From positions 1 to 33,511 of the IMG/VR virus record IMGVR_UViG_3300031565_000200: a DNA stretch of 33,511 nt. The stretch is one strand, 5' to 3'. Source of the stretch: a virus. The notes under the pieces are model-generated. The model had not been told where the DNA came from. It saw nothing but the letters and a program-made list of their open reading frames with translations, and did no database searches. The position numbers were made by a program, and so were the translations under genes. Numbering within the stretch: position 1 is the stretch's first letter; each line of letters begins with the position of its first letter. Below, in pieces: positions 2,708 to 19,626 of this stretch.

Positions 2708-3664
2708 TCACGTCGTGGCCCTCCTTCCGCCGTTGGCGTGGCATTCCGCCAGCGCCCTTATCACCTCAGCGGCGACTTTCGTCACGACGGCATTCCCCGT
2801 CTGCTTGAACCTCTGGTCGTCGCTGACGCCATCCGTCCATCCGTCGGGGAAGCCCATCAGCCTCTCCCTCTCGACCGGCGTCAGCACCCGCAGCCTGCCG
2901 CCGTCGTCGAGCATCGGCTCGCGGCCTGTCGACAGCGTCGGGCACGTGCTGCCTGGCCCGTACACCCTGCCCGTCTGGCCTTGGTGCCATGGGTTCGGGT
3001 TCGTGCGTAGCGACGGCGGCTGCGACCATGAGGCCACGTTGCCTAGCGGCATTGACCTCCATGGAGTATTGTCTGCCATCTCTCTTGTATCATCGAAGAG
3101 CGGAAATACTTCTGGGAAGGGCACGGCTCGAGAATTTCCGATAATGTATGTTCTCTCTCGGTGCTGGGCAACCCAATGTCGGCTGTCAAGCACCTGCCAC
3201 TGGACAGTATACCCCAAGTCCCCCAGCGTCTCCAGGATTCGATAGAACACCCATCCGGCAGTCTCGGGCATGATTTTTCCGGAGGCGTCTCGGAAAGGCG
3301 CGAGCAGAAGGCCCTTAACGTTCTCAAGCAGGAAGTAATTTGGCCGCCTAGCGTCAAGTATTCGACATATCTCAAAGAAGAGGGTGCCGCGGGCGTCTTG
3401 GAAGCCGAGCTTCTTTCCCGCTGTGCTGAAGGACTGGCAGGGGAAGCCTGCACAGAAGAGGTCATGGTCTGGAATAGAGGCCGGGTCGACGTCCCTGGCG
3501 TCCCCGAACTCAGGCTCGTGTCCGAAATTCTTTGCGTATGTTTGCCTTGCCCGTTTGTCATTCTCGCATGCTCCTTTGCATTTTAATTCGTTAGTCTCGC
3601 CCGCCAGGCGGAAGCCGCCGATGCCGGCGAACCAGTCGACGAACGTCTCGAGGCCCTTCGTCAT
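2708..3664 (-). CDS. dcm: C5-cytosine DNA methyltransferase
   Basis: 318 residues, a complete enzyme. Motif I is FVDWFAGIGGFRLA (residues 8-21), motif IV is FCAGFPCQSFSTAG with catalytic Cys76, motif VI is LLENVKG (~113-119), motif VIII is QHRERTYIIG, and the C-terminal motifs IX/X include RVLTPVERERLMGFPDGWT and QTGNAVV. It transfers a methyl group from S-adenosylmethionine to cytosine C5. The target recognition region between VIII and IX is short, and the recognised site cannot be read from it. ATG overlaps the nuclease stop (4 bases), GGAGG upstream. No partner restriction enzyme is visible; protection from host restriction is the likely role. A Vsr gene lies 7.3 kb upstream, which fits repair of m5C deamination. 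Confidence 0.95.
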   Translation of the reverse strand: MTKGLETFVDWFAGIGGFRLAGETNELKCKGACENDKRARQTYAKNFGHEPEFGDARDVDPASIPDHDLFCAGFPCQSFSTAGKKLGFQDARGTLFFEICRILDARRPNYFLLENVKGLLLAPFRDASGKIMPETAGWVFYRILETLGDLGYTVQWQVLDSRHWVAQHRERTYIIGNSRAVPFPEVFPLFDDTREMADNTPWRSMPLGNVASWSQPPSLRTNPNPWHQGQTGRVYGPGSTCPTLSTGREPMLDDGGRLRVLTPVERERLMGFPDGWTDGVSDDQRFKQTGNAVVTKVAAEVIRALAECHANGGRRATT

Positions 3665-4788: not shown

Positions 4789-5505
4789 TTACTCTACCTC
4801 CTCATGCAATTGAATTATGGTGCCCGACTTTGGACGCCGACCGGCGTCTGCCGCCCTGGCCTTGTGGCCATTGGCGCTTGGGCTGTCTCCAGCCGTCTCG
4901 CGCGCTTGGGCGGATTCGCGCCGGCGGAGGCCAGGCGATGAGACCTGGGCGCCATTGTCGGGCATGTTATTTGCCTCCTGCGTTTCCTCATACCTGACGA
5001 CTGTCTTTGCGTCAGGCAACTGCTTGGCGAATCTCGCCAAGGTCAGCAGGTCAGCCACCTTGCCGGGGTCATCCAGGAATATGCGCCTGCCAAGATGGGT
5101 CACAAGGTGATGGCATCCCCTGCAAAGCACGACAAGCAGTGGCTCGGTCATATCGTCGGCATGACCTACAACGTGATGGACTTGAATCTTGGCGCCTATT
5201 TTACCGCATACCCAGCACGCGTTCTCGTCAAAGCCAATGGCTGTCCTGCGCATGCCATCAAAATACTCTGTGTCGCTGTGCATGCTCATCTGGCACTTAT
5301 AACTACAGTAGGCCAGGTCATGCGTGCTCCGTGACTCAAATGTCTTGCCGCAATAGGCACAAACACGGCTAGTTGTCTTAAGCAGTCTGTGCCCTCTGCC
5401 GCCACAGTCTCTGGAGCAAAACTTCTGATTAGCAGTTGTTGGATTGAACTCTTTGCCGCAACGACTACAACTAATGACTTTATTCAGTCGCTTTCGTGGT
5501 ACCAA
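4789..5505 (-). CDS. HNH endonuclease with N-terminal zinc fingers
   Basis: 238 residues, TTG start nine bases after GGAGG, overlapping the integrase 3' end by 26 bases. Two treble-clef style fingers come first (CSRCGKEFN...CSRDCGG and CAYCGKTFE...CSYKC), typical DNA-binding parts of homing-type endonucleases. The HNH core is CWVCGKIGAKIQVHHVVGH...LVVLCRGCHHLVTH. The last ~70 residues are low-complexity and basic. It probably nicks or cuts DNA; free-standing HNH genes in phages are often mobile. It could be a homing insertion between integrase and the recombination genes, or a resident phage gene. Confidence 0.85.
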   Translation of the reverse strand: MVPRKRLNKVISCSRCGKEFNPTTANQKFCSRDCGGRGHRLLKTTSRVCAYCGKTFESRSTHDLAYCSYKCQMSMHSDTEYFDGMRRTAIGFDENACWVCGKIGAKIQVHHVVGHADDMTEPLLVVLCRGCHHLVTHLGRRIFLDDPGKVADLLTLARFAKQLPDAKTVVRYEETQEANNMPDNGAQVSSPGLRRRESAQARETAGDSPSANGHKARAADAGRRPKSGTIIQLHEEVE

Positions 5506-6655
5506 TCTCTTTTACCTCCACGTCTATGACTCGCGGGTCCGCCAGCCGCAACTGGCCCGGCACGCCCATTACTTGCGGGGCGAATTGCCTCGACGCCTCG
5601 TGCATTTCGCCCGTCAAAACATGCCGGTAGACATCCGCTGTTGTGCCCACGCTGGCGTGCCTCAATATCTTGGATACAACTTCTAATTTCGCCCCGTGAG
5701 ACAGGGTGTATGTGGCGAAGAAGTGCCTCAGCGTGTGCGGGTGGAAGTTGCGCATCCCGAACTTCACGCAGGCCCTCTTCAGCGTCTTTTCGTATGATGA
5801 GATGGACCAGTACCCCGATTTTGAATCGCCGGGGAAGACGTAGGGCGAGTCCTTGTCCGGGTGCTCTTCCATCCAGCCCTGGAGCAGGACCTCGGCCGCC
5901 GCTATCATCGGCACCGTGCCTTCCTTGTTGCCCTTGCCTATGACCTTCAGCTCGTGCCTCGTGAACAGCACGCAGTCCTTCCTGAGCCCGCACGCCTCCG
6001 ACAGCCTGAGCCCCGACGTGGCGAGCAGCTGTGTCATCACCCGGTACTTCTGAGTCTGGGCCACCCCGTGGCACTCGTACTCGAGGAGCTTGCACACCTC
6101 TTCCAGCGTCGGCGGCTCCTTCGACCGCCTTGGCACCTTGATGCTCTTGATGCGGTCCGTCGGGTCCACCGGCCACAAGCCCTCTTCCTTCAGGAACGAG
6201 AACAGCGAGCGCAGCGCCTTCCGGTCTGTCGCGACACGGCCTGCCGAGCGCGCCTCCATCCTGGTGGCGAGCCACTGCTGCAGGTCCAGTCGCGACGGCG
6301 TCGGGTGGTCCGCAAGGCACATCTTGATGGTGCTCATGTACACGCGGATTGTGCCCGGAGAGTAGCTCTCCTGCTTGAGCTTGGCCTGCCACATGGGCAC
6401 GCCGTCCATCGGACACGAGATTCTCGCCTTCCGGTCCAGGCCCATGTCTATCCCCTCGCGCACTGCCAGCTGCTTGACCAACGAGGTCACCAGCTCTGTG
6501 CTCGACGGGCTCAACATCGTGAGCGCCTCTACCACGGGCTCGAGCTCCTTGCCGACATTCATCTTGACATAATCTTCGTCTTTTGAACACACTGTCATTA
6601 TAACACCGTCTGCCGTTCCTGCCACCGTTTCGTCCCCTCGGACCTGGGTGTTCAT
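5480..6655 (-). CDS. int: Tyrosine recombinase / phage integrase
   Basis: 391 residues with the full catalytic set: Arg217 (SGLRLSEACGL), Lys241 (GKGNKEG), His307 and Arg310 (HPHTLRHFFAT), His333 (LRHASVG) and nucleophile Tyr343 (DVYRHV). An N-terminal SAM-like core-binding domain covers about residues 85-165 (WQAKLKQESYSPGTIRVYMSTI...LRSLFSFL). The first 80 residues and the ~45-residue C-terminal tail after the Tyr are extra and may contact arm sites or partners. ATG overlaps the preceding stop by four bases. Integrates and excises phage DNA; no attachment site could be located. XerC/D-like dimer resolution is the alternative role. Confidence 0.93.
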   Translation of the reverse strand: MNTQVRGDETVAGTADGVIMTVCSKDEDYVKMNVGKELEPVVEALTMLSPSSTELVTSLVKQLAVREGIDMGLDRKARISCPMDGVPMWQAKLKQESYSPGTIRVYMSTIKMCLADHPTPSRLDLQQWLATRMEARSAGRVATDRKALRSLFSFLKEEGLWPVDPTDRIKSIKVPRRSKEPPTLEEVCKLLEYECHGVAQTQKYRVMTQLLATSGLRLSEACGLRKDCVLFTRHELKVIGKGNKEGTVPMIAAAEVLLQGWMEEHPDKDSPYVFPGDSKSGYWSISSYEKTLKRACVKFGMRNFHPHTLRHFFATYTLSHGAKLEVVSKILRHASVGTTADVYRHVLTGEMHEASRQFAPQVMGVPGQLRLADPRVIDVEVKEIGTTKATE

Positions 6656-7011: not shown

Positions 7012-7524
7012 CTATCTAATGCTGTGAATCAGGACAGCCGTCGGCGCTGTCGGGTCTCCTGCCGGCGGGATGCTGTAGGTCACCTTGGCCGGGCCGCTCG
7101 TCACGTCGAGCCATGCGAACGACAGCAGCACCAGCCCCGTGCCGTCATCGAACAAGACTGCGGTGGAGACGGCGTTCCTGTGCATCGCACTGTCCTTGCC
7201 TACGCCCACCACTTCAGACACGGTTGCCGACAGCTCGTAATGCCGCCTGTGGGCGCTGTCGTCCACGTAGGCGAACGTGCCGTCGGGCATTGGCGGGTAT
7301 GTCTCCGGCTGGTCGATGTTGATGTCCGACAGCCTGTAGACTGGGTCCGAGCCTTGGCAGATAGGCGCCGCCGTTGCCGGAGACACCACCATCCTGACAG
7401 GCATGTCTACCCGTGGCACGTCGGTCGGCGCACAGGACGCAAGCAGGCTGATGAGGACGGCGGCCACAATCGTGGCGACGCCCGTCAGCCACCCTGCGAA
7501 GAAGTCTCTGTTGAACTGCTTCAT
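7012..7524 (-). CDS. Predicted lipoprotein, 170 aa
   Basis: I start at MKQFNRDFFAG, the second of two adjacent ATGs, because the AGGAGG site is then correctly spaced. A signal peptide with hydrophobic core GWLTGVATIVAAVLISLLASC ends in a lipobox (LASC), so the Cys would be lipid-modified and the protein anchored outside the cytoplasmic membrane. The rest (CAPTDVPRVDMPVRMVVSP...) is a secreted domain of unknown family. Phage lipoproteins often block superinfection or alter the lysogen surface; that role here is inference from location and topology. Confidence 0.75.
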   Translation of the reverse strand: MKQFNRDFFAGWLTGVATIVAAVLISLLASCAPTDVPRVDMPVRMVVSPATAAPICQGSDPVYRLSDINIDQPETYPPMPDGTFAYVDDSAHRRHYELSATVSEVVGVGKDSAMHRNAVSTAVLFDDGTGLVLLSFAWLDVTSGPAKVTYSIPPAGDPTAPTAVLIHSIR

Positions 7525-7545
7525 CATTCCTCCTCGGGCGGGTAG

Positions 7546-7571
7546 CCCAGGCGAGCGGGGCAAGGCTTGGG
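7546..7571 (-). repeat. Intergenic hairpin
   Basis: CCCAGGC and GCTTGGG arms (6 of 7 pair) around a 12-base loop in the short gap between the 61-aa gene stop and the lipoprotein start. Confidence 0.35.
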
Positions 7572-10119: not shown

Positions 10120-10371
10120 CTACTGTCGGGCGAATATCTCCTTGAGCTCCAATGTGCTCATGGTGATGCTGTAGCCCGGGAAGTCCTTTTGCATTGTCTT
10201 GGCATATTGCTCGAGTGCGTAGTGGATGAGGTCTCGCTCGTCTGCCGTGAAGTGCTCCTTCATAACGAGCGCCCTATTCGTCTTGATGGGCGTCTCGGCA
10301 TCCCTCCAGGCGTTTTCTTCCTGGGCTCTCTGCCTTTTGGCATTCTGTTCGGCTATTTGCTGGTTTGTCAT
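10120..10371 (-). CDS. Hypothetical protein, 83 aa
   Basis: Starts MTNQQIAEQNAKRQRAQEEN after AAGGAGG; the longer frame upstream runs through the structured non-coding region and is rejected. Charged helical N-terminus, then EHFTADERDLIHYALEQYAKTMQKDFPGYSITMSTLELKEIFARQ. First gene after the 562-base gap. No family recognised. Confidence 0.62.
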   Translation of the reverse strand: MTNQQIAEQNAKRQRAQEENAWRDAETPIKTNRALVMKEHFTADERDLIHYALEQYAKTMQKDFPGYSITMSTLELKEIFARQ

Positions 10372-10403
10372 CGTGTGCCTCCTTACATTATATTCGCGTG
10401 TAA

Positions 10404-10560
10404 CCAAGGGCTTCAGACTGACGCTCCAATGCCACTGTGCGAGAGACAGCGCCGGTCGGTGCTCCAAGGCCATCCGGTCTTATCGGATGGGAGGTGGCAC
10501 TCAGTCAGCCGACGTCCCAATGTCGCTGTGTGGGAGGGCACGTCAGTCTGATGCCTTTGG
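10404..10560 (-). repeat. 157-base nested hairpin
   Basis: Outer arms 10404-10423 and 10541-10560 pair at 18 of 20 positions. Inside, in order, ACAGCG/CGCTGT, GTCGG/CCGAC, GTGC/GCAC and CCATCCG/CGGATGG nest towards a central loop GTCTTAT, giving one almost continuous stem. An imperfect direct repeat (10420-10445 and 10511-10536, 20 of 26 identical, all differences transitions) lies in the two sides. Ends 33 bases before the 83-aa gene start. Confidence 0.72.
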
Positions 10561-10875
10561 CTATACTGCTGAAGACCAGCCGCGGAATGTTACGAGTCTC
10601 GTTCGGTTTGTCGAGTGCGACCTTAATCTGATTGCTCAGGCGGTCCGTAACGCGTACCTAGTTGGCTCACGTATGTGACCTTGGCTGGTCACCCTGTTCG
10701 GGTTGAGCGTTCCTCTTATTCGAGGACCTTGCCCCGCTCGCCTCGGCGACTCTCCCGAGACCCGGTCGACCAGGAATCTCACCTGCCCTGCCGGCTTTAG
10801 CGTTGGTTGGCCTTCTCATTCGTGGCCTGCGTCCTGTTTTCTTCGTTCTCTTATTCGCTCCTTATTCAACCTTAC
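10404..10875 (-). ncRNA. Candidate long structured non-coding RNA
   Basis: The only gene-free stretch above 300 bases is 10372-10933. No minus-strand frame with a ribosome binding site is present. It holds the 157-base nested hairpin plus further stems: CGC-GTTACG/CGTAAC-GCG (10581-10654), GTGACC/GGTCAC (10675-10692), CACGTATGTG (10668-10677), CCTC/GAGG (10712-10725) and CTCGG/CCGAG (10742-10759). A TATAAT box at 10887-10882 precedes it. No tRNA, tmRNA or RNase P signature was seen. Alternatives are a long regulatory leader of the 83-aa gene, a replication origin or a decayed gene. Confidence 0.38.
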
Positions 10876-10881
10876 ATATAC

Positions 10882-10887
10882 ATTATA
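10882..10887 (-). promoter_or_regulatory. Candidate -10 box (TATAAT) before the structured gap
   Basis: Minus-strand TATAAT in CCTATAATGTATATG, 47 bases past the vsr stop. No good -35 hexamer at 16-18 bases (CTCCCG), so strength is uncertain. It would start a transcript through the structured region. Confidence 0.4.
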
Positions 10888-10933
10888 GGCTTCGACGCAG
10901 TGTTCGGGAGCGGGTCGTTAGTACTATGTTGAC

Positions 10934-11332
10934 CTAGGACTTTAGTCCTACCTCTCTGCTGATGAACTCAGCCACCAGGTCGCCCAGGTCGTGCTCCCAT
11001 ATTCGGATGACCCTCCAGCCAGAGCCCTCCAGCAGGTTGGTGGCTGCCAGGTCGCGCTTCTTGTTGGCGGCTATCTTATCGGCCCAGAACTTGGAGTTGG
11101 TCCCTGGCTCGTTGTAGTGCTCCAGGCAGCCGTGCCAGAAGCAGCCGTCCAGGAAGACGGCAATCATCTGCTCCTTGTGGGCGAAGTCAGGCTTGCCGAA
11201 GACATCCTTCGGCTGGTACTCAAAGCCCAGGGCCTCGAGGACCGGCTTGACCGCGAGCTCCATCTTGGTGCCCTGCGACTTGATGGAAGCCATTATCTTC
11301 GACCGGGTGTTCTTGTCTACTGTATCAGTCAT
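10934..11332 (-). CDS. vsr: Very short patch repair (Vsr) endonuclease
   Basis: 132 residues, near the usual Vsr length. Conserved blocks: DKNTRSKIMASIKSQGTKMELAV (the RS-x-M-x-x-I...T-x-x-E start), FGKPDFAHKEQMIAVFLDGCFWHGC (catalytic Asp of G-x-PDF and the GCFWHGC zinc/active-site block), NSKFWADKIAANKKRD and GWRVIRIWEHDL. The E. coli enzyme has His before GCFWH; here it is Asp, as in many homologues. Vsr nicks 5' of the T in T:G mismatches made by deamination of 5-methylcytosine. The phage also encodes a C5-methyltransferase, though 7 kb away. Has its own promoter. Confidence 0.92.
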   Translation of the reverse strand: MTDTVDKNTRSKIMASIKSQGTKMELAVKPVLEALGFEYQPKDVFGKPDFAHKEQMIAVFLDGCFWHGCLEHYNEPGTNSKFWADKIAANKKRDLAATNLLEGSGWRVIRIWEHDLGDLVAEFISREVGLKS

Positions 11333-11381
11333 GGCATCTCCTCAACAAAACGGCTCGACAACAGTTGCGCCGGTCGTATTC

Positions 11382-11416
11382 ATTATACCGCCTATATTAA
11401 AGTGTACATATGTACA
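11382..11416 (-). promoter_or_regulatory. vsr promoter with palindromic operator
   Basis: Minus-strand TATAAT at 11387-11382, 50 bases before the vsr ATG. A perfect 14-bp palindrome TGTACATATGTACA at 11403-11416 covers the expected -35 position, where no TTGACA-like hexamer is present. This is the layout of a repressor or activator site controlling vsr. Confidence 0.6.
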
Positions 11417-11444: not shown

Positions 11445-12341
11445 TCAGTCAACGCTGTAGTCCTTCCAGTCAGTCATCGAGTCTTCGAGCGGGAGGACCT
11501 TGCCGTTCCTGTACACCCAGAAGCCCGGTTGCCACTGCGGCATGGTGGTGATGCCGGTCTTGAACAGGTACTCCTGCTTGCTGACGTCGAACATGCCACC
11601 AAGGTCAATGCCGAGGTACCTGCCGCTGACGTCGTACTTGAAGCCGAAGTGGTGGCCGTGGGCGCAGGCTATGTTCTTGAGGTAGATGCTGGCCGCCGAT
11701 GCCGCGACCTTGGCGCCGTCCCTCGAGAATGTCTTCGGGTGCTCGAGCCTCCACTTGTCGCCGAGCAGCAGAGTCGGTATGTCGCTCACGTGCAGTCTTC
11801 CCGGCGTCCTGCGGCCTACGGCCTCGGCTGACGCCTGCAGCATGTCATGTCCGCCCAGTCGCTGGGGCAGCCTGTCCTCGTGATTGCCGAAGCACCACCA
11901 CACGTCATCGAATATGTTGAGCAGCATGTCCAGGGTCTTGTAGATTATGCGCGCGTCCTGGTCAAGCCCGCCGCCTCTCTGCTCCTTGCGGACGAACCTG
12001 CTAATCCAGGACATGTCGGCAAAGTCGCCCACTATCGCCAGGTCCCTCACGCCGAGCTTTGTGCACACGGCAATCAGCCGCCTCAGCCACAGCTTGCTGA
12101 AGTACGGCGCATGCCAGTCGGCGGTCAGGGCGCACGGCCGGTCCGGAATCTGCAGAATCTCCTTGTCGTAGTCGGGCAGTATGTCAAGCATCTTAGACAG
12201 CGGCTCAATGTCCTTCAGATGGTAGCTGGCCACCTGCTCGGAGCAGCCCACCATCTCCGCGATTGCCTTCGTCGTTGTGCCTGCCTCCCTGAGCGCCGTT
12301 AGTTCGTCGTGCCTCTCCTTTGGCCATACTCCTGTGCTCAT
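11445..12341 (-). CDS. HTH-metallophosphoesterase
   Basis: 298 residues from MSTGVWPKERHDEL, whose ATG overlaps the preceding stop (TAATG). Residues ~8-45 form a homeodomain-like helix-turn-helix (RHDELTALREAGTTTKAIAEMVGCSEQVASYHL). From ~70 on, calcineurin-like phosphoesterase motifs follow in order: ADWHAPY (D-x-H), VGDFADM (GD), CFGNHEDR (GNHE/D) and ACAHGHHFG (GH). Such enzymes cleave phosphodiesters or phosphomonoesters with two metal ions. The HTH suggests a DNA-directed activity. Located between lysis genes and vsr; substrate unknown. Confidence 0.85.
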   Translation of the reverse strand: MSTGVWPKERHDELTALREAGTTTKAIAEMVGCSEQVASYHLKDIEPLSKMLDILPDYDKEILQIPDRPCALTADWHAPYFSKLWLRRLIAVCTKLGVRDLAIVGDFADMSWISRFVRKEQRGGGLDQDARIIYKTLDMLLNIFDDVWWCFGNHEDRLPQRLGGHDMLQASAEAVGRRTPGRLHVSDIPTLLLGDKWRLEHPKTFSRDGAKVAASAASIYLKNIACAHGHHFGFKYDVSGRYLGIDLGGMFDVSKQEYLFKTGITTMPQWQPGFWVYRNGKVLPLEDSMTDWKDYSVD

Positions 12342-12646
12342 TATGTCCCTCCTCGTTTCATATATTCCAGTGCCAATGCGACAAGCAGAGCTCCTCCGGC
12401 GCCTAGCACCAGAATGTTCAGGCCGAACAGCACCCAGAATCCCCAGTTGAACATGCGGCACATGCCCTTCATGCTCTTCTCGACATCTGCCAGCCTGCCA
12501 GCCTGCAGTTCCTGCTCCCGCTTGTAGTCGTTCATGTGGTTGTTGAGGGTGGTGTCGAAGTTCTGGAAGTAGCCCTCGATGTTGTCCAGTCGTGTCGATA
12601 GCTGCGCCACCTCTTCCTTGATGCCCTGCACGTCCTGCTTGTTCAT
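12341..12646 (-). CDS. Holin-like protein, one membrane segment (XhlA-like layout)
   Basis: 101 residues from MNKQDVQGIKEEV, in ATGA overlap with the amidase-like gene and with GGAGG upstream. A coiled-coil N-terminal part (EEVAQLSTRLDNIEGYFQNFDTTLNNHMNDYKREQ) is followed by one hydrophobic segment, WGFWVLFGLNILVLGAGGALLVALALEY, and a basic tail KRGGT. This is the layout of haemolysin XhlA-type proteins that work with holins. Adjacent to a cell-wall hydrolase candidate, so a lysis role is likely; not proven. Confidence 0.65.
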   Translation of the reverse strand: MNKQDVQGIKEEVAQLSTRLDNIEGYFQNFDTTLNNHMNDYKREQELQAGRLADVEKSMKGMCRMFNWGFWVLFGLNILVLGAGGALLVALALEYMKRGGT

Positions 12647-16318: not shown

Positions 16319-16799
16319 CTGTGCCCGCCTCCTTCAGCCTCGCCTTCATCGTTTCGGCCAGGTCTTCCAAGGCTGCCTTCGGCAATAGCATTGTCCTGCC
16401 TGGCCCCTTGATTGCCTTGAGCATTCGCTGTACTCCAGGAATGTCATGTGCCGCGAGCCTGTCATGTATGCTGGTCAATGTGGACTCGTCGAATAGTCTT
16501 TTGATAATGACTTCAACGTCATCTCTGGTGGCTTCGGGGTCTACGGCAATGAAGTGACTAATGTGGAAGCCTAGGGCTAGCTCTTCCGGCAAGCTGGCTT
16601 CCCATTTTTTATAAGCGTCCATGTCCAGCGGCACGCCGTCTTTGTCCGTCTTGCCTGGGTAGCCTCCCGGCGGTATGACCGGGACGTGTATCAGGTAGTC
16701 ATTATACGCCGAGTCGTATGCGTCAAGCTCGACGTCAACCCGAACCATCACCTTGCCGTCAGCCGGCATCACCCCATTTGTGTTTATGGCCGTCTTCAT
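16308..16799 (-). CDS. Hypothetical tail-region protein, 163 aa
   Basis: MKTAINTNGVMPADGKVMVRVDVELDAYDS..., GGAGG site five bases upstream. N-terminal beta segment, then alpha-rich C-terminus (ATRDDVEVIIKRLFDESTLTSIHDRLAAHDIPGVQRMLKAIKGPG). Its place between the tape measure and tail-tip genes is where Dit or tail-tip adaptors usually sit, but no Dit signature is visible. Confidence 0.68.
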   Translation of the reverse strand: MKTAINTNGVMPADGKVMVRVDVELDAYDSAYNDYLIHVPVIPPGGYPGKTDKDGVPLDMDAYKKWEASLPEELALGFHISHFIAVDPEATRDDVEVIIKRLFDESTLTSIHDRLAAHDIPGVQRMLKAIKGPGRTMLLPKAALEDLAETMKARLKEAGTDGY

Positions 16800-16810
16800 C
16801 CGCGCCTCCT

Positions 16811-17449
16811 TTATTTTATTCCTGTGCTTCCGCTCCGGCTACCCTTGAGCAGCAGACCCTTCTGAACGTTGTCGGTCAACCGCCTCTCGGACACAACAGA
16901 CCCGGCTATGTGCTGGTTGATTGTGATATTCTGCTGGGCGTTGGGGTTGGCCGTCGGACCGGAGCTCATCCTGGAGGCTCCGTAGACCGCTGCCCCGGCC
17001 ACTCCCGCGCCTATCGCCAGGGTCGCCCACCCGGCCGGCCCCGAGAACGCCTGCGTCAGTATCTGGGCCACTCGGAGCGCCTTGAGTGCGTTCACCATCT
17101 GCCCAATGGCCCCGATGAACCCGGCGGCCGAGCCGACCACGGTCATTATCGCGCCCGTCATCATGACAATGTTGCCGATGCTCTTCAGCGTCTCGTTGTT
17201 CGTAGACTGCATTGCCAGGCCGAGGGCAAGGAACGTGGTGCCCATGTACCTCACGCCTGACGACATCTCCATGAATGCCTGCTTGTTGCTGACCAGCGTA
17301 TTGCTGACGCCGCCTATCGAATCGCCCATTGTCGTGCTGGACGTCCGAACAATGTTGGCCGTCTGCTTCACTGTCTCGCCGAAGGCCACCATCTGGGGCG
17401 ACGCGTTGTCCCGCATCTCCAGCATGACCTGCATGTTCGTCTCGTTCAT
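16811..17449 (-). CDS. Very short tail tape measure protein, 212 aa
   Basis: Directly follows the G/GT chaperone pair (ATGA overlap), the standard position for the tape measure. The N-terminal MQVMLEMRDNASPQMVAFGETVKQTANIV matches tape-measure starts. A hydrophobic helix-rich centre (SIGNIVMMTGAIMTVVGSAAGFIGAIGQMV; PAGWATLAIGAGVAGAAVYG) follows. The C-terminus ITINQHIAGSVVSERRLTDNVQKGLL resembles the usual tape-measure end. Most siphovirus tape measures exceed 600 residues; at ~1.5 angstrom per residue this one predicts a tail near 30 nm. Confidence 0.75.
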   Translation of the reverse strand: MNETNMQVMLEMRDNASPQMVAFGETVKQTANIVRTSSTTMGDSIGGVSNTLVSNKQAFMEMSSGVRYMGTTFLALGLAMQSTNNETLKSIGNIVMMTGAIMTVVGSAAGFIGAIGQMVNALKALRVAQILTQAFSGPAGWATLAIGAGVAGAAVYGASRMSSGPTANPNAQQNITINQHIAGSVVSERRLTDNVQKGLLLKGSRSGSTGIK

Positions 17450-18177: not shown

Positions 18178-18666
18178 CTATGCGGTGCTCGAAGTAACGC
18201 CGTTATCAGCATGGAACTCAGCGTGGACGGCAATGTAGTCGCCGACCCGGCTCGTTATCTCGTAGACCGGAAGGTAGACGTTGCCGCTTATCTTCGAGTT
18301 GCCCGTGGTCGTGCCAGCCGGGTAGTACTCGAAGGCCCTCAGCGCCTTGGCCACCCACATCGCGTTCAGCACCGTGTGCACGCCGACTGACGTGACCATG
18401 TTGAACAGGAACTCGACCGAGAAGTGGACCACAAGAATGGACGGCCCAGGGCGTTCGCCTACCGAACCCCACGTGGTTATGTCATTCATCTTGTACTGCC
18501 CCGGCAGTCCCCTGAGCTCCTTGACGTACGGCGACAGTATCTGGAGTGACGAGCCGTCGTTCACCTTGAGGACGCTGACCTCAGCGTCGAAGTACGTGTC
18601 CTGGTCCGCGACCAGCGGTATGCCCAGCATACCCAGTAGCCATTGTAGAATCCTTGCCTTGTGCAT
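18178..18666 (-). CDS. Major tail tube protein (probable)
   Basis: 162 residues. Position (after the tail terminator, before the chaperones) is that of the tail tube. The beta-rich sequence ends 'LPVYEITSRVGDYIAVHAEFHADNGVTSSTA', closely resembling tube proteins whose last strand is 'G-D-x-x-x-x-x-x-E-F-x-x-x-G-x-x-T'. Also DAEVSVLKVNDGSSLQILSPYVKELRGLPGQY, a common tube start motif. Subunits stack into the rings that the tape measure measures. The N-terminus has a short hydrophobic helix (ILQWLLGMLGIPLV), unusual for a tube protein, perhaps an unused upstream start. Confidence 0.68.
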   Translation of the reverse strand: MHKARILQWLLGMLGIPLVADQDTYFDAEVSVLKVNDGSSLQILSPYVKELRGLPGQYKMNDITTWGSVGERPGPSILVVHFSVEFLFNMVTSVGVHTVLNAMWVAKALRAFEYYPAGTTTGNSKISGNVYLPVYEITSRVGDYIAVHAEFHADNGVTSSTA

Positions 18667-18679
18667 TGTGCTCCTCCTT

Positions 18680-19147
18680 CTAGTAGTCTTCTGCCTGCTC
18701 CAGCGTCACTGGTATCATGATGCCCTGCAGGAAGGGCTGTGTGTTCATCGGCTCCGTGACAGCCGCCTGCCCGGTCAGCTTCACCACATAGTTGATGTTG
18801 TCTTTTGCCGTGCGCAGCAATTCCACAATCCCGACGGCGTACCGGCAAAGCCTGCGGAACCTGGCCTCAACGTTGTCGTCGCCAACGAACACGAGAATGG
18901 TGATGCTGTTCGTCAGCATGAGGCTGGCAAGCCGCTGCTCCTTTGGCGTAAACCCACTGCCGGCAATCACTATCGACGGTGCCTCCGGCGTGGACTGCGG
19001 CATATTGCCGGTGTAGTATGTCTTGATGCTGTCGAGAACATAGACATCGGCGTACCTGGAATTGAGCGCCGTTATCTTGGCCGGCATCTGCGCCTCTAGG
19101 TAAGCCTGCAGGTCATCGACAGCCGCTTCCAACAGTTCAATAGTCAT
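18680..19147 (-). CDS. Tail terminator / tail completion protein (probable)
   Basis: 155 residues from MTIELLEAAVDDLQ, whose ATG shares bases with the preceding stop (ATGA) and has GGAGG in front. Layout: N-terminal helix (LEAAVDDLQAYLEAQMPAKITALN), beta strands with ITILVFVGDD, second helix VEARFRRLCRYAVGIVELL and final beta strand. This matches the gpU/gp17-like tail completion fold; order between the Mu-G-like protein and tail tube agrees. No diagnostic motif. Confidence 0.6.
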   Translation of the reverse strand: MTIELLEAAVDDLQAYLEAQMPAKITALNSRYADVYVLDSIKTYYTGNMPQSTPEAPSIVIAGSGFTPKEQRLASLMLTNSITILVFVGDDNVEARFRRLCRYAVGIVELLRTAKDNINYVVKLTGQAAVTEPMNTQPFLQGIMIPVTLEQAEDY

Positions 19148-19626
19148 GCTAGATGTGCCTCCTTCGCCTTGTCGTATATGTAGTTGTGTATCATCTTCAC
19201 CCATCCGGTCTTGTCCGGCTCTGTCAGCGCCACCACCTTCCTCATCGGCAGGTTGGTCTTGAACGAGCCTTGCTGGTGGTATACCGGGTACCGCATAGAC
19301 GGCGGCCCTATCCGCAGCCTCAGCGGCTCAGACATGACATTCATGCCGATGCCCATGGCGAACTGGCCCCACATCTGCCCGGTCAGGCGCATCAGCGGCT
19401 GGCCGGGATAGTTGCGCATCTTCCACGCCTCGTAGTCCGGGCTCAGTTGCTGCCACGGAACGCCGGACCTGCCGCCCAAAGAGTCGAACTGCTCGGTCTC
19501 TATGCGGTGGAAGTCAGCCTTAATCTGGTCCCACACCTTGCGGTAGTCCTTGACCGCATCGCCGTACCGGCTGAACGCCCTCATCATGGCCACGTCACCG
19601 AGTATAGTGAAGCTTACAGTCAGCAA
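19144..19626 (-). CDS. Mu gpG-like virion morphogenesis protein
   Basis: 160 residues from a TTG start seven bases after AAGGAG; a longer frame overlaps the previous gene and has no site. The signature 'GGRSGVPWQQLSPDYEAWKMRNYPGQPLMRLTGQMWG' matches phage virion morphogenesis proteins (gpG of Mu, PF05069: W-x-x-L-x-x-x-[TY]...K...P-L-M-x-L-T-G-x-L). The later beta strands RLRIGPPSMRYPVYHQQGS are also conserved. These proteins build the head-tail neck. Confidence 0.8.
   Translation of the reverse strand: MLTVSFTILGDVAMMRAFSRYGDAVKDYRKVWDQIKADFHRIETEQFDSLGGRSGVPWQQLSPDYEAWKMRNYPGQPLMRLTGQMWGQFAMGIGMNVMSEPLRLRIGPPSMRYPVYHQQGSFKTNLPMRKVVALTEPDKTGWVKMIHNYIYDKAKEAHLA

Follow-up and report, generated by a model that had tools for sequence, protein, structure and literature searches.

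A probable, conserved structured RNA from an uncultured temperate phage is a candidate base-pairing regulator of a phage lipoprotein gene

The only long gene-free region of an uncultured temperate bacterial virus encodes, in the reading that we favor with moderate confidence, a trans-acting regulatory RNA that works by base-pairing. A segment of its conserved core is antisense to the leader of a phage lipoprotein gene, and the RNA therefore probably controls that gene through base-pairing. The source is a 33.5-kb IMG/VR phage record, here called the window. The window encodes a Mu-like portal and protease and, on the minus strand, an integrase (5480-6655) and a C5 cytosine methylase. As the preliminary description had stated, 10372-10933 is the sole long gap among the minus-strand genes; in our gene model it spans 562 nt, the next longest 191. 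A vsr endonuclease gene (10934-11332) flanks it on one side, a gene with an 83-aa product (10120-10371) on the other. The features listed next all lie on the minus strand, and P1 through P5 follow one another in the 5' to 3' direction:

10912-10948, minus: conserved DNA upstream of the likely RNA promoter; includes an inverted repeat whose consensus is GTACTAGGNCAAANTAGTAC (10921-10940; 2 mismatches in the window)
10881-10887, minus: TATAATG box; the relatives carry TATAAT/TATTAT at the equivalent position
10694-10835, minus: conserved structured RNA core with five hairpin/stem elements, P1-P5
P1, minus: GGCC/GGCC
P2, minus: CCGG..CAGG/CCUG..CCGG
P3, minus: GUCUCGG/CCGAGGC
P4, minus: GAGCG/CGCUC, enclosing the GGGGCAAG loop
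P5, minus: two compensated pairs, UCCUC/GAGGA vs GCAUC/GAUGC
10727-10759, minus: antisense segment of the core, 29/33 complementary to the lipoprotein 5' UTR, 17 contiguous
10402-10698, minus: variable 3' part with a long hairpin, absent from G002 and replaced by other sequence in G001
7533-7565, minus: target in the lipoprotein 5' UTR, ending in a GAGGAGG ribosome-binding site
7012-7521, minus: target gene, located two genes upstream of that for the integrase and encoding a ~169-aa lipoprotein with a signal helix and an LLASC lipobox

Conservation and helices were compared across three distinct sequences, namely the window and two diverged IMG/VR relatives, G002 (3300031949_000917) and G001 (3300031586_000017). 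Their vsr genes are 73% and 72% identical to that of the window, respectively, and the G001 phosphoesterase is 80% identical; two further IMG/VR records (L003, L004) are near-identical to the window. G002 keeps 10698-10950 at 79% and 10368-10401 at 85%, with the ~297 bases between them absent, and G001 keeps the core at 81% over 10697-10833. The conserved unit is 10694-10940 on the minus strand, made up of the inverted repeat, the TATAAT and a core of ~135-140 nt. The vsr gene precedes the RNA region in all three phages, and in G002 a small helix-turn-helix gene separates the two. The genes after the core look unrelated across the three phages when their sequences are compared by reading, which argues that the core is an autonomous noncoding RNA and not the leader of a conserved gene; a riboswitch or other cis leader of a conserved gene was rejected on this ground. 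A query with 10120-10371, the next gene in the window, returned near-identical copies only. No DNA similarity to the region was found in phages or plasmids, and no cultured phage, plasmid or reference genome matched it. RNA-motif and protein scans of viral and genome collections yielded no further distinct relative, and the other sequences that were hit by the 16-mer, by the hairpin pattern or by the gapped pattern had no similarity beyond the pattern itself.

The same five helices are present in the three phages, with 97.8% of helix cells paired as compared with 27-46% when the partners were slid, a control that favors a structure drawn from the same three sequences. Misses in P1 stem from an offset of G001 in the alignment; the GGCC/GGCC helix itself exists in that phage. 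P2 and P3 show G-U/A-U exchanges (U-G to U-A in P3), and because the G-U pairs in the two relatives correspond to C-A mismatches on the other strand, the minus strand is favored as the RNA. Covariation amounts to the two compensated pairs in P5 and, with three sequences, is not significant (58/500 column shuffles). Indels in the P2 loop, of 1 nt in G002 and 2 nt in G001, break the reading frames; with frames shifted between relatives, the core is not a protein gene, and a protein-coding relic is ruled out. The preliminary interpretation is partly supported. A minus-strand structured RNA with a TATAAT start is backed by a core, promoter and helices kept in two relatives, by the broken frames and by the paired helix cells. 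The 157-base stem on which the preliminary call had leaned fared differently: it sits in the 297-nt variable part, which is missing from G002 and not shared by G001.

Within the window this stem is as had been described, its arms 10404-10423 and 10541-10560 pairing at 18/20 positions; our tool extends them to 10398-10423 and 10541-10566, at 85% complementarity. Segments 10420-10445 and 10511-10536 indeed differ by transitions only, at six positions. The minus strand of the full 562 nt folds to -202 kcal/mol (z -3.9; equally stable shuffles 0/100), the plus strand has a z of -2.0, and the 299 nt of 10402-10700 folded alone again give -3.9. The most conserved part, 10698-10880, has an ordinary z of -1.5 to -2.0 and the core one of -0.9 to -2.3. 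Because the conserved part is unremarkable in this respect and the phage also has coding stretches with a z of -2.9 to -3.2, stability by itself counts as weak evidence. The long hairpin belongs to the variable part because G002 lacks the 3' part and the G001 sequence differs. The 297 nt form a clean gap in the alignment to G002. Between the core and the next gene, G001 instead has 597 bases of other sequence; this extension has no significant similarity to the 297-nt part, and the whole G001 region folds with a z of -3.8. A mobile element as the origin of the 297 nt was rejected: inspection by eye showed no terminal repeats, and the window contains no second long copy. The 3' extension probably serves as a variable accessory domain or as cargo.

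What is conserved is the promoter-proximal half of the region, and this points to a base-pairing regulator with a core of ~140 nt and not to a giant ornate RNA. In agreement with the earlier remark that no specific RNA family could be recognized, an Rfam search of the window, the region and both relatives identified no family even with relaxed thresholds. The GOLLD and ROOL covariance models had no match in the window or relatives at E <= 1 or in the region at E <= 5, and by that test the RNA is neither. The one Rfam hit, to the bip IRES (E 0.52), falls inside vsr and was discarded as chance.

The TATAAT reported before was found again on the minus strand at 10887-10882. The TATAATG box is likely the -10 element of the RNA promoter; a purine-rich start follows it in the minus-strand alignment. 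No good -35 hexamer is present, and a promoter scan shows no two-hexamer promoter at the box. A second TATAAT in the window, at 10392, lies ahead of the next gene. The GTACTAGGNCAAANTAGTAC inverted repeat occurs at the same place in the three phages, in one copy per sequence, with 0 expected by chance in the window, and is likely an operator or activator site. In G002 a small LuxR-type helix-turn-helix gene, recognized by eye (12180-12380, L029), adjoins the conserved inverted repeat, and its product is a candidate regulator of the RNA promoter. A terminator scan of the minus strand detected no terminator after the core.

When the region was searched against its own phage, a single other match emerged, at 7533-7565 in the opposite orientation (E 2.5e-6); a further similarity search gave the antisense match with E 3e-4. 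The 7533-7565 site lies within the 55-nt gap ahead of the lipoprotein gene, ~3 kb from the core, and the sense mRNA there reads CCUUGCCCCGCUCGCCUGGGCUACCCGCCCGAGGAGGAAUGAUG. Because the core contains AGGCGAGCGGGGCAAGG, 17 nt pair unbroken and 29 of 33 overall. The antisense segment takes in most of P3 (its hairpin, starting from the 5' strand) together with the GGGGCAAG loop and the 5' strand of P4. For the window and for G001, the antisense matches of the core throughout its own phage were set against those of 1000 dinucleotide-preserving shuffles of the core; the G002 record ends before the lipoprotein gene. In the window the lipoprotein UTR is the best antisense site of the core, a match reached by 0/1000 shuffles; in G001 the orthologous UTR is likewise the best site (26/31), reached by 1/1000 shuffles. 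Complementarity to a translation-initiation region encoded elsewhere is therefore kept in both phages that include the target gene. A duplex ranking that allows large loops places the target first in the window and second in G001. The leaders of these two phages share the 18-mer CTTGCCCCGCTCGCCTGG exactly (18/18), and their proteins are 40% identical. One base is mismatched in the 16-nt seed of G001, and the predicted seed duplexes have energies of -66 and -53 kcal/mol. By prediction the antisense segment is mostly paired within the core, with part of the loop open. Predicted accessibility of the Shine-Dalgarno sequence falls when 18 nt are bound but rises when 32 nt are bound.

The G001 ortholog (16600-17100), whose lipobox is the same, has the same leader motif ahead of its gene. 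The lipoprotein matched nothing in Pfam or PHROG; its structure prediction is poor (pLDDT 56), and a fold search returned nothing significant, only weak OB-fold resemblances. Its position near the integrase would, by analogy, fit a gene of the lysogeny module.

Three further observations are of note. A 29-nt repeat, AAGCCCCTACCGTGAGACCCGGAGGGCGC, is found on the minus strand of G001:C1 as exact copies at 18896-18924 and 19514-19542, both directly before ribosome-binding sites, and a third match at ~18514-18552 on the same strand is 87% over 39 nt. This repeat, possibly a shared leader element, could fold into a small hairpin, and the GAGACCCGG within it is complementary to the core's CCGGGUCUC. 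Upstream of vsr, at 11333-11410, a conserved ACATATGTA and a GCAAC-GTTGC-like repeat are present in all three phages and possibly constitute another operator. The phage carries both the C5 cytosine methylase (2708-3664) and the Vsr-type mismatch endonuclease (10934-11332), a pairing expected for the repair of deaminated methylcytosine.

From these data we infer that the RNA acts as a free molecule rather than as the leader of a long transcript, and propose the following course of events. Transcription would start at ~10876 under the control of a regulator bound to the inverted repeat. The partly open GGGGCAAG loop would make the first contact, with CUUGCCCC in the mRNA, and the duplex would then extend through P4 and P3 as far as the ribosome-binding site. 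The resulting duplex of 31-33 bp would end inside GAGGAGG in the case of the window, and in G001 a few bases short of the Shine-Dalgarno sequence. It would most likely block ribosome entry, expose the mRNA to RNase III and lower lipoprotein synthesis. The accessibility calculation is ambiguous, and folding thus does not fix the sign of regulation; the model most likely implies repression of the lipoprotein gene and, less likely, activation by freeing of the Shine-Dalgarno sequence.

Other readings account for parts of these data. The core could be a cis-acting promoter-proximal RNA like put of HK022, altering RNA polymerase such that it passes terminators within the genes that follow, with the antisense match being incidental or secondary. 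The location of the core right behind the promoter, its consecutive hairpins and the lack of a terminator after it agree with this idea, as do the varying same-strand genes that follow, which would be expected of an element that acts whatever comes next. However, this scheme, which we consider unlikely, does not explain why orthologous UTRs are matched in antisense in two phages, and the core is about twice the size of put. Less probable again is pairing within one transcript, in which the core, as the 5' leader of a long RNA that includes the lipoprotein gene 3 kb downstream, masks the ribosome-binding site of that gene in cis, while shorter transcripts from internal promoters stay unmasked. 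The antisense evidence serves this arrangement as well as the trans-acting RNA, all genes between core and target are on the same strand, and no minus-strand terminator-like site lies near the core; yet a 3-kb read-through transcript is an assumption, and the other TATAAT, at 10392, precedes the next gene.

The 17-nt match might also be a DNA site shared by the RNA gene and, inverted, by the lipoprotein leader, recognized by one regulatory protein without any RNA-RNA pairing. Sites in double-stranded DNA may occur in either orientation, and this is the single such pair of copies in the window. The segment is, however, part of a conserved base-paired RNA in which changes keep the pairs (U-G to U-A in P3), it lies downstream of the promoter and not at it, and it is not itself palindromic; we regard such a site as improbable, more so than the two cis-acting schemes. 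Least probable of all, to a degree that makes us doubt it strongly, is a large ornate RNA assembling like GOLLD or ROOL, with the core joined to the extension as a variable domain. The high stability of the extension in the window and of the whole G001 region would suit it, but G002 has no extension, those of the window and G001 are dissimilar in sequence, Rfam gives no match, and a tRNA/tmRNA search of the window found none.

The favored trans-acting regulator has partial counterparts among characterized phage RNAs. Sar RNA of P22 is antisense to ant mRNA and interferes with translation initiation (PMC12197685). As here, a phage-encoded RNA pairs with a phage mRNA, although in our case the pairing is predicted; by this analogy, blocked initiation would be the simplest outcome. 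Sar is encoded opposite its target, whereas the RNA described here lies 3 kb away, is partially complementary and also has its own conserved fold. OOP RNA of lambda acts on a phage mRNA in an RNase III-dependent manner (PMC12197685), but is a cis-encoded antisense of cII, and the present region matches no phage record. P22 sas is also an antisense RNA that tunes a phage gene, sieB, which acts on superinfection (PMC12197685); here the predicted target is a lipoprotein gene. The put RNAs of HK022, ~70 nt with two stem-loops, are located downstream of early promoters (PMC9378689) and resemble the core as structured RNAs immediately behind a phage promoter, but they bind the zinc-binding domain of RNA polymerase and bring about antitermination in cis, have no antisense target and differ from the core in size and number of helices. 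GOLLD and ROOL are large structured phage RNAs, and GOLLD combines a conserved part with a less conserved one (PMC12286853). Unlike GOLLD and ROOL, the RNA described here has no Rfam match and no tRNA nearby, and its conserved core is only ~140 nt long.

To our knowledge, trans-acting phage RNAs that target a phage mRNA are few, and those studied in depth come mostly from enterobacterial phages. The RNA most likely represents a new phage noncoding RNA family, without an Rfam counterpart, of the base-pairing regulator kind; the kind is known and the member is new. More tentatively, it may stand for a new modular family of temperate-phage RNAs, each switched through its own operator, with a conserved core that regulates a surface lipoprotein through pairing with the leader and with exchangeable structured 3' domains of 0-600 nt that have their own functions, a possibility that we view with considerable doubt. 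Here, sequence data alone, from an uncultured phage group, led to a candidate RNA with a predicted target. Some lipoproteins of temperate phages act on the host surface, and if this one does, the RNA would set the timing of a function in lysogeny or exclusion.
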